The notes beneath the pieces are model-generated. The model saw nothing but the letters and a program-made list of their open reading frames with translations, searched no databases and was not told the origin of the DNA. A DNA stretch of 32,678 bases from a bacterium (GTDB lineage Bacteria; Bacteroidota; Rhodothermia; Balneolales; M1805), in NCBI GenBank assembly GCA_006226965.1, contig SBGQ01000178.1:1-32678 (forward strand). The letters are read 5' to 3'. The translations under genes and the position numbers were made by a program. This document shows positions 3,398 to 18,470 of this stretch, one piece after another. Position 1 is the first letter of the stretch, and each line of letters starts with the position of its first letter.

Positions 3398-4291
3398 ATG
3401 AAAAACTTGTCTATTGAACTCTGTACGCCCGAATTCTGGAACGATTACGAATTGCTCGACTGCGGTAATTTTGAAAAATTAGAACGTTTTGGAAGTTTTA
3501 TTTTCCGCAGACCTGAACCTCAAGCCGTTTGGGATAAAGCATGGACAGAGCAAGAATGGCAAAAACAAGCTCATGCACGTTTTGAAGGAGATTCTCCGAC
3601 TACGGGAAAATGGATTAAATACAAGCCGGTTCCTGATCGTTGGGAAATTCGTTATCACTCCAAATTATTGGATTTCAAAATGCGCTTGGCAACTACCGCT
3701 TTTAAGCATGTCGGTTTGTTTCCGGAGCAAGCTACCAACTGGGAGTTCATTGCAGATTCCATCAAAAAGATTAAAGGGGAAGAACCAAAAGTTCTGAACT
3801 TGTTTGCCTACACTGGCGGAGCAAGCATTGCCGCACGAAATGCAGGAGCATTTACAACCCACGTTGATTCCATCAAACAAGTAGTAACATGGGCAAACGA
3901 AAACGCAGAACTAAACAATTTCGACAAAATTCGCTGGATGGTTGAAGACGCCGTAAAATTCGTGAAACGTGAAATCCGCAGAGGAAATACGTATCACGGT
4001 ATTATTCTCGACCCGCCGGCATACGGACACGGCCCAAAAGGTGAGAAATGGAAATTAGAAGATCATATTCTTGAAATGATGAAAGATGTAACTCAACTTC
4101 TCGACCCAAAACAGCATTTTCTTGTCCTAAACACGTATTCTCTTGGCTTTTCATCCTTGATTGTGAAAAACTTACTCGATCAGACGATGCACAAAGATGC
4201 CAAAAAAATGATTGGAGAAGTGGTTTTGCAGGCAAAATCAGGTGTAATTTTACCTCTTGGTGTGGTTGGTAGAGTTTCTAAAAATTTATAA
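3398..4291 (+). CDS. Class I SAM-dependent methyltransferase, RlmI-like (probable rRNA cytosine-C5 type family)
   Basis: This 297-residue protein has the SAM-binding motif I at about residues 133-141 (LNLFAYTGG), an acidic residue after strand 2 (D156) and the motif IV sequence DPPAYGHG at 205-212. This arrangement is found in the RlmI/RlmKL family of 23S rRNA methyltransferases. It lacks the PUA domain of E. coli RlmI and has instead about 90 residues of N-terminal beta structure (GKWIKYKPVPDRWEIRY). The likely role is methylation of an RNA base using SAM, with target unknown. Proteins like this are often annotated only as class I SAM-dependent methyltransferase. Its last 6 bp overlap the converging ATP-grasp gene. 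Confidence 0.8.
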   Translation: MKNLSIELCTPEFWNDYELLDCGNFEKLERFGSFIFRRPEPQAVWDKAWTEQEWQKQAHARFEGDSPTTGKWIKYKPVPDRWEIRYHSKLLDFKMRLATTAFKHVGLFPEQATNWEFIADSIKKIKGEEPKVLNLFAYTGGASIAARNAGAFTTHVDSIKQVVTWANENAELNNFDKIRWMVEDAVKFVKREIRRGNTYHGIILDPPAYGHGPKGEKWKLEDHILEMMKDVTQLLDPKQHFLVLNTYSLGFSSLIVKNLLDQTMHKDAKKMIGEVVLQAKSGVILPLGVVGRVSKNL

Positions 4292-5500
4292 ACCCGCTAA
4301 AACCTCTTTTTCTATCATTTCCAATTCTTCAAACGATTTTGCTTTAATAACAACCGTTACGTGATTGTGAGAAACCTGTCTCCACACAATCGATTGATGT
4401 TGGATTCGGGATGAACATAAAGGGGGATTTTCCGTTGGGATGCGTACTACTCTCGCCTGATTAGTTTCCGGCTTGGGGCATTGATAGGCTGATTCCTGTG
4501 GTTGCGCCATTTCCATTTTTGCCCATTCACGCCATAAGTTTAATCCATTTGCCGCCTCAACCAACTCGGCGATGTAATGGCCGCTCACTTTTCCTGACGA
4601 TTGTATGAAATAGAATTTCCCATCCTGCGCTGAATGAATAAATTCGTTACTGGAAACACCGTATTTCAAACCCATCGAATCGATAATTTGCTTATTCAAC
4701 TTAAGTAAATCTTTTTCGATTTTGCTTCCTTTTTTGATGGTTGATAACGACATCATTCCGCCGTTTTGAACAATATCCATCACCGGACGACTGTACTTAT
4801 GTACCCCTGCAAATTGCACTTCATGGTCGTACACAATCGAATCAACCTGATAGATTTCCCCGGGAATAAAACGCTCAATCAAATATAAAGATTGGTCATC
4901 TCCCAAGTCTAAAATACTGTCCCACAACTCTTTCTGGTTGCTCATCTTTTTGTATTTATCGGATGCATCTTTGAAACGAGGTTTTAAAATCCAAGGTGGA
5001 GTTACAATAGATGTGAACGCTTTTATTCGTTCGTAATTCAACACATGAACATATTCAGGAACTAAAATATCGTCTTCTTCAGCTTTATCCCGCATGGCTA
5101 ATTTATCGCGGAAATAACGCATTCTGGTTTCGCCCATTCCTGAAACTCGCAAATGCTCACGCAATGCCGATGCTTTTTCTACATCATAATCATCTAAAGG
5201 AACAATTTTATCGAAATGAACTGAACGCGCAAGGTAACTCACGCCTTTAATAAGATTCGGAATATTCCAAGTATCTTCACGTTCATCCACAAAGAAAATA
5301 TCAGCTAAAAACTCTCTTGGCCATGGTTTTTCGCGATTTGCCACATCGGTTATTAAATAAATAGTACAACCTAAGTGATGTGCTTCCTGTAAAAAATCCA
5401 AGCCTTTAAAATGGCTGGCAATACAAAGTAAAGTGAGTGGACGATACGTTGGGGTCACGCGATAACAATTGAGTTCAATTTGCGCTGAATATACAATCAA
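4286..5500 (-). CDS. ATP-grasp domain protein (carboxylate-amine ligase-like)
   Basis: The ORF codes for 404 residues. After a Rossmann-like N-terminus (LTLLCIASHFKG) comes an ATP-grasp core: RYFRDKLAMRDKAEEDDILVPEY, then PPWILKPRFKDASDKYKKM for the ATP-binding lysines, and later YLIERFIPGEIYQVDSIVYD. The acidic metal-binding end is less standard (GVSSNEFIHSAQDGKFYFIQSSGKVSG), with N/Q/S where ExN motifs are usual. Such enzymes join a carboxylate to an amine or other nucleophile with ATP; the substrate cannot be told. No ATG exists near the N-terminus: the long frame begins at TTG (5500), and a GTG at 5458 is an equally good start. It overlaps the 3' end of the methyltransferase gene by 6 bp. 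Confidence 0.72.
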   Translation of the reverse strand: MIVYSAQIELNCYRVTPTYRPLTLLCIASHFKGLDFLQEAHHLGCTIYLITDVANREKPWPREFLADIFFVDEREDTWNIPNLIKGVSYLARSVHFDKIVPLDDYDVEKASALREHLRVSGMGETRMRYFRDKLAMRDKAEEDDILVPEYVHVLNYERIKAFTSIVTPPWILKPRFKDASDKYKKMSNQKELWDSILDLGDDQSLYLIERFIPGEIYQVDSIVYDHEVQFAGVHKYSRPVMDIVQNGGMMSLSTIKKGSKIEKDLLKLNKQIIDSMGLKYGVSSNEFIHSAQDGKFYFIQSSGKVSGHYIAELVEAANGLNLWREWAKMEMAQPQESAYQCPKPETNQARVVRIPTENPPLCSSRIQHQSIVWRQVSHNHVTVVIKAKSFEELEMIEKEVLAGL

Positions 5501-7311: not shown

Positions 7312-9027
7312 TCAGGCTTTTCCCGCCAAAGCTAAACCTTTTACGAACGCCTTTAATCCTGCTTCAATCGTGTCTGTAGAAACCGATTTTACCAAGAATT
7401 GCTTTTCTTTATGGGATAATCTTAAAGTCACTACAACCAATGAACTCGCTGCCGGACTCAACACTTCCACATTATGATCAACGACTTCGATAGGAATCAA
7501 GGTATCTGTAACCGATTTCACCGCAGTTATTACAGCGTGTAATGGACCAACGCCTTTAGCTTTTGCATCAATATGTTTGCCTTTAATTCCAAGACTAACA
7601 GTTGCATTAACCAAACCGTTTTTGCGCATACGAACATCGTAATCCAGTACCTGAATTAATTGGTCAGATTCCGGCTCCTCATCAAAAACCATCGATTGAA
7701 GCACTTCCAACTCTTTTTCGGTGAGGATTTTGCCGCGCTTATTGAATGAATCCACGTAATCATTAAAGATCTTCGCCTGTTCAGGTTCCAATTTCAAATT
7801 ACCGAACGGACTTCCCTGCCATTTTCCCCAAGCACTTGCCTGAATATCCAAATAGCCGGAATTAATAAACTTGTGAATGGCTTTTAAATCATTCCCGATT
7901 ACCGGTGAAGGCAAACTGTGTCGAACCACAACGCCTGTATCTTTCAAGCCGATTCCGGTTAGTACAAACAAACACTTAGCGGAACCAAATTCTTTACGAT
8001 ATTTCTTGAAGGCAGCCAAGCCTAAAGCACTTGCAGGCTCTGTAAAAATGCCTTCTTTTTGTGCCATTTCGGTCAAAGCTTCCAGAATTTCTTCTTCCGA
8101 AACGGTGAACGCCACACCGTTACTTTCGTTGATTCCACGCAACACTTTATAAAAATCTACCGGATCGGCAGCCGCAACTGCACCGGCAATAGTTTGCACA
8201 CGTGTTTCAATAATCTTTTCTTTTTTGAAGATGCCCTTTACAACGGGAGAGCTTCCTTCGGGTTGAACAGCAACCATTTTCGGGAGTTTTTTAATCAAAC
8301 CCTGATTAAAAGCTTCGCGATATCCTTTCCAGATGGCGCCAAAATTTGTACCGCATCCAACCGGCACAAAAACGTAATCAAAATCGTCGCCGCCTTGCTC
8401 AATCACTTCAAAACTCATGGATTTTTGTCCCTCTTCACGGAACACATAATCGCCGGCCAAATAGTAATTGCCTGATTCTGCAAACTTACGACACAATGCT
8501 TCACAGGTCGAGTAATCACCTTTTACTTTAATCACTTTGGCGTTGTACACCATTGCCTGAGCCAATTTACCTTCAGTAGTGTATTCGGGTACAAATACGT
8601 AACATTTTATACCAAAATAACTGGCGTATGCTGCAACCGAAGCCGCCATATTTCCGGTTGATGCCAAACAAATGGCATCAGCACCTAACTCACGGGCTTT
8701 TAACACTTCAATGTAAGAACCGCGATCTTTAAAACATCCGGTTGGATTTTGATATTCGCTCTTTACCCAAACATTTCCATCGTACTGCGCTGAAAGTTTA
8801 TCGAGCCTTTTCAGTTCTGTTTTATTGGTACGAATCGGGTCTTCGGGGCGGGTTTTTAAAGGAACGAGAATCTGATGTGGATTTTCCGGTGAAATATGGT
8901 ACTCAATCTCTAAAACACTTCCGCAAACCGTACAATATGTGGTTGTTTCTTTCTCTGAATTGATGTGTCCGTGTTGTACACATTTGAGCGTATAAAGCTC
9001 ACTTTCGGTTGAAGTGCTGTTGTTCAT
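7312..9027 (-). CDS. thrC: Threonine synthase fused to a LeuA-type regulatory domain
   Basis: This 571-residue protein converts O-phosphohomoserine to threonine with PLP. An N-terminal cysteine cluster (C16, C32, C35) suggests a zinc ribbon. The PLP lysine is K100 in NPTGCFKDRG, the threonine-synthase form rather than the FKLRG of threonine deaminase. ASTGNMAAS (122-130) and VGCGTN (223-228) form the cofactor pocket, and the fold ends near 375. After an 80-residue linker, residues about 456-571 look like the LeuA dimerisation/allosteric domain of 2-isopropylmalate and citramalate synthases: LDYDVRMRKNG, then GVGPLHAVITAVKSV, then STDTIEAGLKAFVKGLA. In those enzymes this domain binds leucine or isoleucine. 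Control by a branched-chain amino acid is therefore plausible, but inferred. Confidence 0.88.
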   Translation of the reverse strand: MNNSTSTESELYTLKCVQHGHINSEKETTTYCTVCGSVLEIEYHISPENPHQILVPLKTRPEDPIRTNKTELKRLDKLSAQYDGNVWVKSEYQNPTGCFKDRGSYIEVLKARELGADAICLASTGNMAASVAAYASYFGIKCYVFVPEYTTEGKLAQAMVYNAKVIKVKGDYSTCEALCRKFAESGNYYLAGDYVFREEGQKSMSFEVIEQGGDDFDYVFVPVGCGTNFGAIWKGYREAFNQGLIKKLPKMVAVQPEGSSPVVKGIFKKEKIIETRVQTIAGAVAAADPVDFYKVLRGINESNGVAFTVSEEEILEALTEMAQKEGIFTEPASALGLAAFKKYRKEFGSAKCLFVLTGIGLKDTGVVVRHSLPSPVIGNDLKAIHKFINSGYLDIQASAWGKWQGSPFGNLKLEPEQAKIFNDYVDSFNKRGKILTEKELEVLQSMVFDEEPESDQLIQVLDYDVRMRKNGLVNATVSLGIKGKHIDAKAKGVGPLHAVITAVKSVTDTLIPIEVVDHNVEVLSPAASSLVVVTLRLSHKEKQFLVKSVSTDTIEAGLKAFVKGLALAGKA

Positions 9028-14357: not shown

Positions 14358-17300
14358 ATGAAGCTATTCTCATATTGGGATTTTTTTAAACATTCAGCTC
14401 TAGTCTTTTGCATTCAGCTTATAGCCAATAGTGCATACGCACAATTAAACTCCTATCGCCTAGGAAATCTTAACCCTCCAATCATTATTGAAAATTACGC
14501 GGCAAGTAGTGGTTTGCCCGTTGAGGCACTTACAGATATCAAATTTTCACCCGACGGGAATTTATATCTCAGCTCATATGATGGTTTAATTCGTTTTGAC
14601 GGCACCTCATTTTATTCCAAAAACTCTTCTAATGATTCCGTTTTTGTGAGCGATTACCCGATCGCTTTGTATGTATTAAAAGACTCATCCATTATTGTTT
14701 TAGACGATATGGAAGAAGCTATTTGGATAAAGGGGAAGAAAGAAGTTCGCATTAACGGAAAAGTGGGTTTACCCTCATCAACAATCAATCACATTCATAT
14801 AGAAAACGGTTCGAAGATTTGGATTTCAACTAATTATGGAATCGGAATGCAAGAAAATGGCCCCAACTTCAGCATTTTCAACCGCTACTTTAAATACAAT
14901 GTAAAATGTGCCGTTCCATTCGATGAGTTCAGTGTCTATGCCATGACGGACAGAGGTCTTTTCCTGGTCACAAAAAATACGATTCGGAAGATTTACAACT
15001 TTGAAGATGAAATATTTGCTGATGAATCCAGAGTGCGATTAACGCTTACTGAAGACAAGCAATTACTCGTTGCAGCGAAATATGGCATATTACACTTTAA
15101 TGAGAAACACGAACTCGTTTATCGTCAATTTTTAAATACCACTGCCTATCAGTTTTATAAAGACAAAAGTGTAAATAACAGCTATCTGTTGCGAACCATG
15201 GAAAAATTTTTCTGGTACAATGTGAATACGCACAAACTAACGCCTTATCCGACAACAAAAGAGGTGTACGGCGGGAATTTTGTATTTGACGATTCCAAAT
15301 GGATGGGTTCAGAATTATTAGTGGGCGCTTATACTATTTATCATAAAGGCAGAATCATTTTTACGGCACCAGATTCGGTTAATATCTCAAATACCGCACA
15401 AGATAATCTGGGAAATCTTTGGATTGCTACGAACGGAAGAGGGTTATTCAAGTTGTCGTACGGTAAATTTTATACGCTCGACCTTCCTAAAGACCCTTTG
15501 AATCTAAACGCTTATTCCATGAGCAAAGACCAATCCGGAGTACTATGGTTTACTACCTTAAAATCGGGTTTAATTTCGTGGGACGGCACTTCGATTAAGC
15601 GCCACAGAGTTAATCCGACAGCGACAAATCTGGAAGATACTCGGGTAATTTCAACCACATCTTCGGGTGAAGTTTTTACTTCAATTTGGGGGGATGGGCT
15701 ATGGAAAAAATCAGACAAAAGCTGGAATCGTATTCTTCCTGAGCATCAGGTTTTAAACAGACAATTTAATGTTGTTGAGGCCTTTTATGAAGATGATTTC
15801 GGGAACTATTGGCTTGGTTCTATAACAGGATTAATTCACCTAAAAAAAGACTTGAAATCGGCAGAAGAACTGCGTGACTCCGTTGGAAATCCTCTTGCAT
15901 TTGTGCGAACTATTAGTCCTTGGTACGAAAATCAGATTCTTTTGGGCACAAATAAGTTTGGCGTTTGGAGAGCCGATACAAAAACTAACTTTATTTATTC
16001 GTTCTTACCGACTCAAGCAGGTCGTTTGATTCGGGATATCTATGCACCTTCAAAAGATACCGTTTGGTTTGCAACGGAAGATAAAGGCCTCGTTCGGTAT
16101 GTTACCAATGGTTCGGGTTCATTATCCATTAAGTCTTTTAATATGCCGGAAATTATGCCCGATTGGTCAGTTCACAAGATTCTTCGTGATCGATTCGGCT
16201 ACTGGTGGCTTACCAATAATCAAGGTTTATATCGAATCAAAAAGTCTGAACTGGATCTCTTTTTAGATAAAAAGATTTCAGACACACAACTGTTGCGATT
16301 TACTGAATCGGAAGGTTTACCACACCGCGAATTTAACGGCGGAGTGATGAACGCCGGAATTGTTGACGAAAAAGGTTGGATTTGGGTTCCGACACAACGT
16401 GGAATCAGCTTTTTTAACCCTGCTGATTTTTTAAGCGATCCGGAATATGAAGTTCAGCTTAAAGAATTTAAAACAGATTATCGAACCGAAAAATTTACCG
16501 GCTCAGAAATCACATTGGAACAAAATGAGCGGGCAATCAACCTGAACATTGCCATTAAGAACGGGCATGAAATCAAACAGAAATCAATCTCTTACAGAGT
16601 AGTTCCCAGCGATACCATGTGGCGCATGAGTCAACAAGCCGGAAATGTCTTTATATCAGGCTTAGCCTCAGGAAATCAGAAAATCGAACTACGATTAAAT
16701 CACCAACCATCGTTTAAGCCAGTAACTTTATCAATTCCGATATATGTTGCCGAATTTTGGTATGAAAATTCCTATTTCTGGATTTTCGTCTTATTTCTGC
16801 TGGGAGTTCTGTTCACCGGTAGTTTTTATTTAATTGTAAAACGTGCTCAAGTGCGGGAAGATATTCTTAATGTGAAAGTAAAGGAACGCACGCATCAATT
16901 AGAAAAGCAACGCGAAGAAACTGAAAAAGCGCTGGAAATTGTCCAACAACAAGCATCGGAGTTGCAAGAGATTGATAAAATTAAAACAGAGTTTTTTGTT
17001 CGGCTTACACACGAATTGAGAACACCATTATCCTTGATAAACGGACCTCTTGAGCATATCATAGAAACCATCGAAAACGGTGAATTAGCTGATATGCCTT
17101 TGCGTTTAAAAGGAATCAAAAAAAACGCTGAAACGCTGCACAGTTTAATCGATCAGCTTCTTGAGTTGTACCAATTTAATGTAGGTTCGTTTAAGCTGCA
17201 TAAGCAGCGGGTAAATCTCTCTGCGCTCACCAAAGACGTAGTTGAAAACTATGTAAATCATCATCATTCTGATGTAAGTATCATCAAATTTGAAAAGAAA

Positions 17301-18470
17301 TACGCCGAGATTCTTATAGAAACAGACCCCTCACTTTGGGAAATTATATTAACTCACATTAGCACAATTTCTGTACCCTACATCAACAAAAACGAATCCT
17401 TGTATGTGTATTTCAGCTGCGAGAAGAATACTGTAAGCTTGATTTTTGAAAACTTTGCAAACGCTTTGGATGAAAAGGATTTCAATCAATTGTACGAACT
17501 CTTTTATAATCCGGAATCAAACGAAAAACTGATAGGCTCAGGGTTAGGACTCACCTTAGCCAAAAAATATGTTGAATTGCTTGGCGGAGATATTCATATA
17601 CGCTCTGTGGAACAAGGTAAAAATCAGCTTATAATCGAATTACCCAATCTGATTTCATTCGAAAAAAGTGATTCTTCGCCGATCATTTTCTTTACTTCTG
17701 AAAAACAAGCAGCCATCAATCTTTCGAATCCGAACAAGCTTCCTCAACTGCTAATCGTTGAAGACAATCAGGAATTCAGAGAATATCTCAACTTGATATT
17801 AAAAGACGAGTATTTTCTGGTTGAAGCCGCAAACGGAGCAAGAGCATTAGAAATTCTAAAACAATACCGTCCGGATCTCATTATATCTGATGTGATGATG
17901 CCCACCATGAACGGCTTCGATTTTGCCAAAAATGCACGCGAAATGGATGGCTTAAAAACCATTCCTCTCATTTTCCTCACAGCTAAAAACACCAAACAAG
18001 CGATTCAAGAAGGTTTACAAACCGGCGCTCAAGCCTATTTAACCAAGCCTGTAAGTAATTCTATTCTAAAAGCTCAAATTCAATCGTTAATCCAAAGAGA
18101 AAAAAGTACACAACACTTAATTGCTTCAACCAAAAAGGCGGAAAAAGACCCGTTCAGAATTCAAGTTGATGAATTAATTCTTCGTCACCTTTCTGACCCT
18201 CAGCTTTCAATAGATACGATAGCAGAAGCTATACATGTGTCAAAATCGAGTTTATATCGCAAATGGAAAGAGGTTTCTCCTAGTGAGCAAATGAACGCTT
18301 ATATCATTCGCAAAAGGCTCGAAGAAACACTAAGACTAGTTAAGGATGATAAACTCACTTTCTCTGAAGCATCGTTCGTATGCGGCTTTTCTAATCCGTC
18401 CTATTTTTCGAGAATTTTCAAAAAAGTTTATCATTGTACCCCAAGCGAGTACATCGAAAAAAATATATAA
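14358..18470 (+). CDS. Hybrid two-component sensor/regulator (Reg_prop propeller, histidine kinase, receiver, AraC HTH)
   Basis: The 1370 residues run as follows: signal peptide (1-29, ending NSAYA), Reg_prop-type beta-propeller repeats (about 35-690, e.g. NLWIATNGRGLFKLSYG), Y_Y_Y domain (about 705-795), membrane helix (about 805-828), HisKA with phospho-acceptor H885 (LTHELRTPL), HATPase_c, receiver with D1178 (IISDVMMP) and lysine TKP, and an AraC HTH (about 1262-1370). It would sense a periplasmic ligand and bind DNA from one chain. The ATPase domain is odd: the G2 box GSGLGLTLAKKYVELLGG is intact, but the N-box asparagines and the DTGIGI G1 box are replaced (ILTHISTISVPY; FENFANAL). Kinase activity is therefore doubtful. 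No polysaccharide-utilisation locus is adjacent. Confidence 0.92.
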   Translation: MKLFSYWDFFKHSALVFCIQLIANSAYAQLNSYRLGNLNPPIIIENYAASSGLPVEALTDIKFSPDGNLYLSSYDGLIRFDGTSFYSKNSSNDSVFVSDYPIALYVLKDSSIIVLDDMEEAIWIKGKKEVRINGKVGLPSSTINHIHIENGSKIWISTNYGIGMQENGPNFSIFNRYFKYNVKCAVPFDEFSVYAMTDRGLFLVTKNTIRKIYNFEDEIFADESRVRLTLTEDKQLLVAAKYGILHFNEKHELVYRQFLNTTAYQFYKDKSVNNSYLLRTMEKFFWYNVNTHKLTPYPTTKEVYGGNFVFDDSKWMGSELLVGAYTIYHKGRIIFTAPDSVNISNTAQDNLGNLWIATNGRGLFKLSYGKFYTLDLPKDPLNLNAYSMSKDQSGVLWFTTLKSGLISWDGTSIKRHRVNPTATNLEDTRVISTTSSGEVFTSIWGDGLWKKSDKSWNRILPEHQVLNRQFNVVEAFYEDDFGNYWLGSITGLIHLKKDLKSAEELRDSVGNPLAFVRTISPWYENQILLGTNKFGVWRADTKTNFIYSFLPTQAGRLIRDIYAPSKDTVWFATEDKGLVRYVTNGSGSLSIKSFNMPEIMPDWSVHKILRDRFGYWWLTNNQGLYRIKKSELDLFLDKKISDTQLLRFTESEGLPHREFNGGVMNAGIVDEKGWIWVPTQRGISFFNPADFLSDPEYEVQLKEFKTDYRTEKFTGSEITLEQNERAINLNIAIKNGHEIKQKSISYRVVPSDTMWRMSQQAGNVFISGLASGNQKIELRLNHQPSFKPVTLSIPIYVAEFWYENSYFWIFVLFLLGVLFTGSFYLIVKRAQVREDILNVKVKERTHQLEKQREETEKALEIVQQQASELQEIDKIKTEFFVRLTHELRTPLSLINGPLEHIIETIENGELADMPLRLKGIKKNAETLHSLIDQLLELYQFNVGSFKLHKQRVNLSALTKDVVENYVNHHHSDVSIIKFEKKYAEILIETDPSLWEIILTHISTISVPYINKNESLYVYFSCEKNTVSLIFENFANALDEKDFNQLYELFYNPESNEKLIGSGLGLTLAKKYVELLGGDIHIRSVEQGKNQLIIELPNLISFEKSDSSPIIFFTSEKQAAINLSNPNKLPQLLIVEDNQEFREYLNLILKDEYFLVEAANGARALEILKQYRPDLIISDVMMPTMNGFDFAKNAREMDGLKTIPLIFLTAKNTKQAIQEGLQTGAQAYLTKPVSNSILKAQIQSLIQREKSTQHLIASTKKAEKDPFRIQVDELILRHLSDPQLSIDTIAEAIHVSKSSLYRKWKEVSPSEQMNAYIIRKRLEETLRLVKDDKLTFSEASFVCGFSNPSYFSRIFKKVYHCTPSEYIEKNI

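Follow-up and report, generated by a model that had tools for sequence, protein, structure and literature searches.

A PLP enzyme of the threonine synthase family carrying a LeuA-type regulatory domain in the Balneolales

Isopropylmalate and citramalate synthases, which are DRE-TIM enzymes, are the known carriers of the LeuA regulatory domain. In the stretch of DNA analysed here (the window, 32,678 nucleotides of contig SBGQ01000178.1, assembly GCA_006226965.1), a domain of this kind appears to stand behind a pyridoxal phosphate (PLP) enzyme, which raises the question of whether the fusion is genuine, whether its two sites are preserved and which reaction would be under control. The first-pass annotation had described a complete threonine synthase with a LeuA-type domain at residues 456-571, and had proposed feedback on this enzyme by a branched-chain amino acid. 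The open reading frame runs from 9027 to 7312 on the minus strand, starts with ATG and has no internal stop. Its features are as follows.

7312..9027, minus strand: complete fusion gene, 571 aa, with its stop codon counted in the coordinates
8923..8982, minus strand: N-terminal Cys-rich segment, residues 16-35 (C16 / C32-x2-C35), zinc-ribbon-like
7954..8823, minus strand: PLP fold-type-II catalytic domain (PALP), residues 69-358 (Pfam E 4.2e-72)
8728..8730, minus strand: K100 of PTGCFKDRG, the lysine forming the PLP Schiff base, invariant in 44 orthologues
8437..8457, minus strand: A191-G192-D193-Y-V-F-R197, in place of NSxNxxR (A191, G192, D193 and R197 invariant in 44)
8344..8358, minus strand: G224-C225-G226-T227-N228, in place of GNxG[N/D], by alignment
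7687..7791, minus strand: helical linker, about residues 413-447, matching the LeuA segment that precedes the regulatory domain (extent approximate)
7333..7701, minus strand: LeuA_dimer regulatory domain (PF08502), residues 443-565, from profile matches
7543..7554, minus strand: G492-V-G-P495 at a helix N-terminus, invariant; effector-carboxylate role in LeuA, by homology
7447..7539, minus strand: effector-pocket equivalents H497, H518 and A527, from the 3f6g alignment
7372..7380, minus strand: S550-x-D552 loop of the effector site, invariant

Architecture and distribution of the fusion

A Pfam search of the protein matched PF08502 at 64.7 bits (E 9.9e-18), well above the gathering score of 24.9, and the motifs noted earlier, GVGPLHAVI at 492-500 and DTIEAGLKA at 552-560, were present together with K100. 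The LeuA-type identity of the C-terminal part was thus borne out, whereas its limits had to be redrawn, with the domain starting nearer residue 443 and the linker of about 413-447 belonging to it as well. The NCBIfam model leuA_bact (TIGR00973) aligned residues 416-565 with its positions 349-493, and because this match begins at model position 349, part of the LeuA helical linker is included in the fusion. Helices were placed in the linker by a single-sequence AlphaFold2 model with a pLDDT of only 37. In LeuA, the linker is held to transmit the inhibitory signal (PMC10464499).

A profile of the C-terminal part from 30 orthologues, searched against all PDB sequences, found 3f6g/3f6h, a citramalate synthase regulatory domain, as the only convincing chain (E 3e-4), and the same part taken as a single sequence gave no match in the PDB with phmmer. 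Pairwise BLAST of the C-terminal part of P0001 was not significant against the LeuA of its own genome and weak against a CimA (E 3e-5); the fusion-family C-terminal profile matched both. At the other end of the protein, C16, C32 and C35 are invariant among the fusion orthologues, and the Cys-rich segment may bind zinc. An Rfam search of the window found no RNA regulator upstream of the gene.

Of 129 genomes of the order, 53 encode the same architecture, at 49-60% identity and in four family-level groups. Two of the 53 copies are interrupted by contig ends, and the LeuA domain is present in every copy whose length allows a judgement. A tree built from catalytic domains recovers the fusions as a single monophyletic group with full support; its sister subfamily was not settled by this tree. 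A chance or frameshift fusion is ruled out by the 53 genomes and the single monophyletic group. Outside the order, the fusion was absent from a sample of 395 genomes of the phylum (E <= 1e-60), and plasmid records gave no match across 80% of the protein length, so that no broad spread through the phylum or on plasmids was seen. Mean identity between the window protein and its orthologues is highest in the PALP domain (65%), lower in the LeuA part (47%) and lowest in the linker (35%).

No consistent operon partner of the fused gene was found among the loci examined. Its neighbours include a divergent AnmK gene and, in one family, convergent dap genes; in the largest family the fusion adjoins lysC-dapB-dapA-dapD or thrABC, convergently. 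In several relatives thrABC, the fusion and dapB-dapA-dapD are grouped (L051:3071-5542 and G009 C2:180915-185576), and in this aspartate-family cluster the fusion gene is convergent to thrC. Elsewhere in the window lie a gene for a 1370-aa hybrid two-component protein with propeller repeats, kinase, receiver and AraC-type HTH (14358-18470) and a 404-aa open reading frame with no Pfam family (4286-5500), whose residues 36-330 weakly match the NCBIfam argininosuccinate lyase/ATP-grasp-type model PRK02186. Por_Secre_tail sorting domains, which occur in the window and in relatives, and SusC-like proteins point to an origin within the Bacteroidota/Balneolota/Rhodothermota group.

Catalytic and effector sites

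Invariance of residues was scored on 44 aligned fusion orthologues. T357 is invariant alongside K100, and the predicted residues of PLP chemistry are intact. The NSxNxxR motif is common to the thr-operon ThrC proteins of both subclasses (E. coli, the window genome, Priestia and Listeria) and to an annotated archaeal relative; GNxG[N/D] is common to the same set except the archaeal relative, and both motifs line up in the same way in the four top-ranking bacterial threonine synthases of the PDB. In their place all aligned fusions carry A-G-D-[Y/F]-x-x-R, shorter by one residue, and G-[C/A]-G-T-N; in the alignment, the change from the thr-operon threonine synthase motifs is thus invariant. In T. 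thermophilus ThrC, N154, S155 and N188 of these motifs, together with R160, presumably bind the substrate phosphate, and of these four residues the fusion retains the arginine alone. R197, T357 and KDRG of the fusion are threonine-synthase-like.

Profile scores place the protein in the same family. The thrC model TIGR00260 matched at 206 bits in an NCBIfam search (cut-off 167), several orthologues scoring slightly under the cut-off, whereas threonine ammonia-lyase models gave at most 108 bits against cut-offs of at least 379; Pfam showed no ACT domain. Of the earlier description, a catalytic domain of the threonine synthase family is supported, together with a LeuA-type effector domain that retains its features for binding an amino-acid carboxylate, and it is probable that the reaction has changed relative to threonine synthase.

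Proteins that a profile names threonine synthase can be something else. PRK08197-type 'threonine synthases' (L081:3742-4926, L082:4921-6123 and L084:4043-5239) have KEPYR in place of NSxNxxR and come from genomes that lack homoserine kinase; the name of this family may be incorrect. Similarly, thrC-annotated proteins outside thr operons on haloarchaeal plasmids (L113 and L114) have NxAxINPFQ and GDGCT at the usual motifs and are likely not threonine synthases.

In the regulatory domain G492, V493, G494, P495, S550 and D552 are each invariant in the 44 orthologues, and the carboxylate-binding core, as predicted by homology to LeuA, is intact. A change in the corresponding loop of M. abscessus LeuA abolishes leucine control (PMC11057210). 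H518 is likewise present in 44 of 44 orthologues and aligns with tyrosine Y454 of Leptospira CimA, a replacement which suggests altered effector selectivity. The putative pocket residues were assigned by alignment with the Leptospira citramalate synthase domain (3f6g). Position 497 is D in 43 of the 44 and position 527 is T in 43 of the 44, the window copy alone having H497 and A527, two residues that may have changed or abolished its response to the effector. However, H497 need not mean effector loss, since the citramalate synthases of the order also have H at this first pocket position (GPVHA).

Threonine and isoleucine pathways and the candidate reaction

A canonical thrA-thrB-thrC operon lies on another contig of the window genome (3.78 Mb; listed completeness 100%), and a role for the fusion as sole threonine synthase of the cell was rejected on this ground. 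The wider claim that the fusion is the cell's threonine synthase is likewise not supported, given this operon, the replaced motifs and the retention of the fusion where homoserine kinase or canonical ThrC is missing. Homoserine kinase is present in the window genome and absent from 10 of the 46 good-quality fusion genomes (>=90% complete, <=5% contaminated), a count which left out alternative kinases such as TIGR02535. Two reduced genomes, G090 (90% complete) and G091 (89%), are also without homoserine dehydrogenase, which the other thrB-less fusion genomes checked retain. Many threonine prototrophs have no recognisable ThrB according to GapMind (PMC7311316), and because of these and of possible alternative kinases the absence of thrB is moderate evidence and not proof.

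For isoleucine, the window genome has ilvD-ilvB-ilvN-ilvC-leuA as consecutive genes, ilvN being assigned by position and length. Its six PLP fold-II proteins are CBS, CysM, a CysK-like protein, TrpB, ThrC and the fusion. It encodes no IlvA or TdcB, the threonine ammonia-lyase model finding nothing better than the fusion, and no CimA, LeuA being the sole HMGL-like protein. With ilvDBNC-leuA present and IlvA, TdcB and CimA absent, the fusion is the sole visible candidate source of 2-oxobutyrate in this genome. The 46 good genomes as a whole comprise 17 with a regulated IlvA, 12 with a CimA-type enzyme, 14 without ilvD and three with ilvD and neither enzyme. These three are the window genome, G006 and G026, and TdcB-like proteins were found in the latter two. 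The CimA-type enzymes are LeuA_dimer-bearing proteins of 530-560 aa, three of which, two from fusion genomes, were confirmed as citramalate synthase. Thus the fusion is not a simple replacement of IlvA family-wide, and its role must be broader than isoleucine synthesis, because it is retained irrespective of how isoleucine is made and even in genomes that look auxotrophic.

The nearest unfused relatives are proteins of about 400 aa with 38-40% identity to the catalytic part of the fusion. In all five loci seen, a gene for a Rid-family enamine/imine deaminase follows directly on the same strand (family f5: L065:7593-8000, L066:39-497, L075:1165-1572, L076:1506-1901 and L078:820-1194), which suggests that these threonine-synthase-like genes encode dehydratases and not threonine synthases. 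RidA/Rid genes are known to cluster with threonine dehydratase (PMC4433059). No RidA gene was seen beside the fused genes at the fusion loci themselves.

Taken together, the fusion likely marks a step at the threonine/isoleucine junction that is controlled by branched-chain amino acids, more probably on the threonine-consuming side. The explanation we tentatively prefer, at somewhat less than an even chance, is a lyase of the threonine synthase lineage that is controlled by branched-chain amino acids and is probably a threonine deaminase. A threonine-consuming lyase is favoured by the position of the fusion as sole 2-oxobutyrate candidate, by its RidA-linked relatives and by precedents for deamination by ThrC: the T. 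thermophilus and B. subtilis enzymes deaminate threonine in vitro, and a diverged Microcystis ThrC combines synthase activity with threonine deamination, with sigmoidal kinetics and inhibition of the deamination by isoleucine (PMC12172450). The replaced motifs, the presence of canonical thrABC and the retention of the fusion without homoserine kinase or homoserine dehydrogenase add to this support. It is weakened by the HMM score, nearer threonine synthase than ammonia-lyase, by the threonine-synthase-like R197, T357 and KDRG, by a distribution that does not track the need for 2-oxobutyrate, and by the RidA link, which is missing beside the fused genes and comes from relatives whose place in the tree is unsettled. 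The H497 and A527 that the window copy alone has among 44 also weaken the case for its control by branched-chain amino acids. A narrower form, an independently evolved deaminase regulated by isoleucine or leucine through a LeuA switch in place of ACT, from which alone the window organism would obtain 2-oxobutyrate for isoleucine, is doubtful.

In the preferred scheme, a fold-type-II paralogue of the threonine synthase lineage would have gained the LeuA helical linker and regulatory domain. O-phosphohomoserine would no longer be a substrate, and threonine, or a close hydroxy amino acid, would be converted to 2-oxobutyrate and ammonia by elimination and deamination. The C-terminal domains would pair and hold a branched-chain amino acid between their beta-beta-beta-alpha units. 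Binding would be relayed through the linker to the catalytic domain, where isoleucine or leucine would probably act as an inhibitor. Within the window genome the fusion would supply 2-oxobutyrate to the ilv enzymes, while in relatives without the isoleucine pathway it could serve threonine breakdown, with the branched-chain amino acid signalling amino-acid supply.

Three other explanations were weighed. It is rather unlikely that the fusion is a regulated lyase or synthase with a different substrate (e.g. serine, an acyl-homoserine or a diamino acid), its LeuA domain sensing branched-chain amino acids as a nutrient signal. Cysteate synthase, which evolved from threonine synthase, provides the precedent, and the gain of an invariant D193 and GTN near the substrate, retention in amino-acid auxotrophs and the synteny with lysC-dapB-dapA-dapD in one family would all fit; yet no partner gene indicates which other pathway this would be, the dap genes run convergently and are not co-transcribed, and the score of the cysteate synthase model (54 bits) lies far under its cut-off of 325. 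Somewhat less likely again is a second threonine synthase on O-phosphohomoserine, feedback-regulated by branched-chain amino acids and working beside the unregulated canonical ThrC. It would explain the TIGR00260 score above cut-off, threonine synthases as the best PDB relatives, the retained K100, R197, T357 and KDRG and the convergent thrABC neighbours in several relatives, but it has to contend with the canonical thrABC of the genome, with the loss of motifs shared by threonine synthases and with genomes that keep the fusion without homoserine kinase (TIGR02535-type alternatives left out) or, in two cases, without homoserine dehydrogenase.

It is improbable that the LeuA domain serves chiefly for dimerisation, or as a partner for the LeuA of relatives without a regulatory domain, and not as a switch of its own enzyme. 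The domain does dimerise in LeuA, and the LeuA of G003 stops at 387 aa without a regulatory domain. However, the LeuA of the window genome retains its own, the fusion persists in genomes without ilvD, and the invariant carboxylate-binding residues would be superfluous for dimerisation alone. The short LeuA of G003 (L094:1489-2652) adjoins an intact ilv region, and unregulated LeuA seems to be present in several relatives too (open frames of 395-426 aa).

Comparison with known systems

The fusion appears to combine a known catalytic family and a known sensor in a way that is undescribed. In the open literature searched, with subscription journals and InterPro architecture tables outside its scope, no PLP enzyme with a LeuA_dimer domain was described. 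Its conservation on a PLP enzyme in about 50 species presents the LeuA domain as a portable amino-acid sensor, like ACT, and provides an example in which control at the threonine/isoleucine junction can be tested. If the fusion deaminates threonine, a gap in isoleucine-pathway prediction would be filled for a whole bacterial order.

With ThrC (TIGR00260; PDB 2zsj, 6cgq, 1uim and 2d1f) the fusion shares the fold-type-II core and the N/HPTGxFKDRG, STGN and TGxGLKD motifs; in contrast to ThrC, it has NSxNxxR and GNxG[N/D] replaced, carries the extra LeuA linker and regulatory domain, and occurs with a canonical ThrC alongside. Like IlvA (BTD1/BTD2; TIGR02079 and TIGR01124), it joins a PLP fold-II domain to a C-terminal branched-chain amino acid control domain. 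Control of threonine deaminase is through ACT-like domains (PMC3851459), whereas the fusion has LeuA_dimer in their place and a catalytic domain of the threonine synthase lineage. Compared with LeuA and CimA (PF08502; PDB 3f6g/3f6h and 3FIG), its catalytic partner is a PLP enzyme and not a TIM barrel, and the tyrosine Y454 of CimA is an invariant histidine. Plant threonine synthase is a precedent for allosteric control in this family, but its effector is S-adenosylmethionine and it has no LeuA domain (PMC9081730). The Microcystis ThrC is likewise of the threonine synthase lineage, and isoleucine-inhibited deamination of threonine was shown for that enzyme; unlike the fusion, it has no LeuA_dimer domain described and keeps its synthase activity (PMC12172450).
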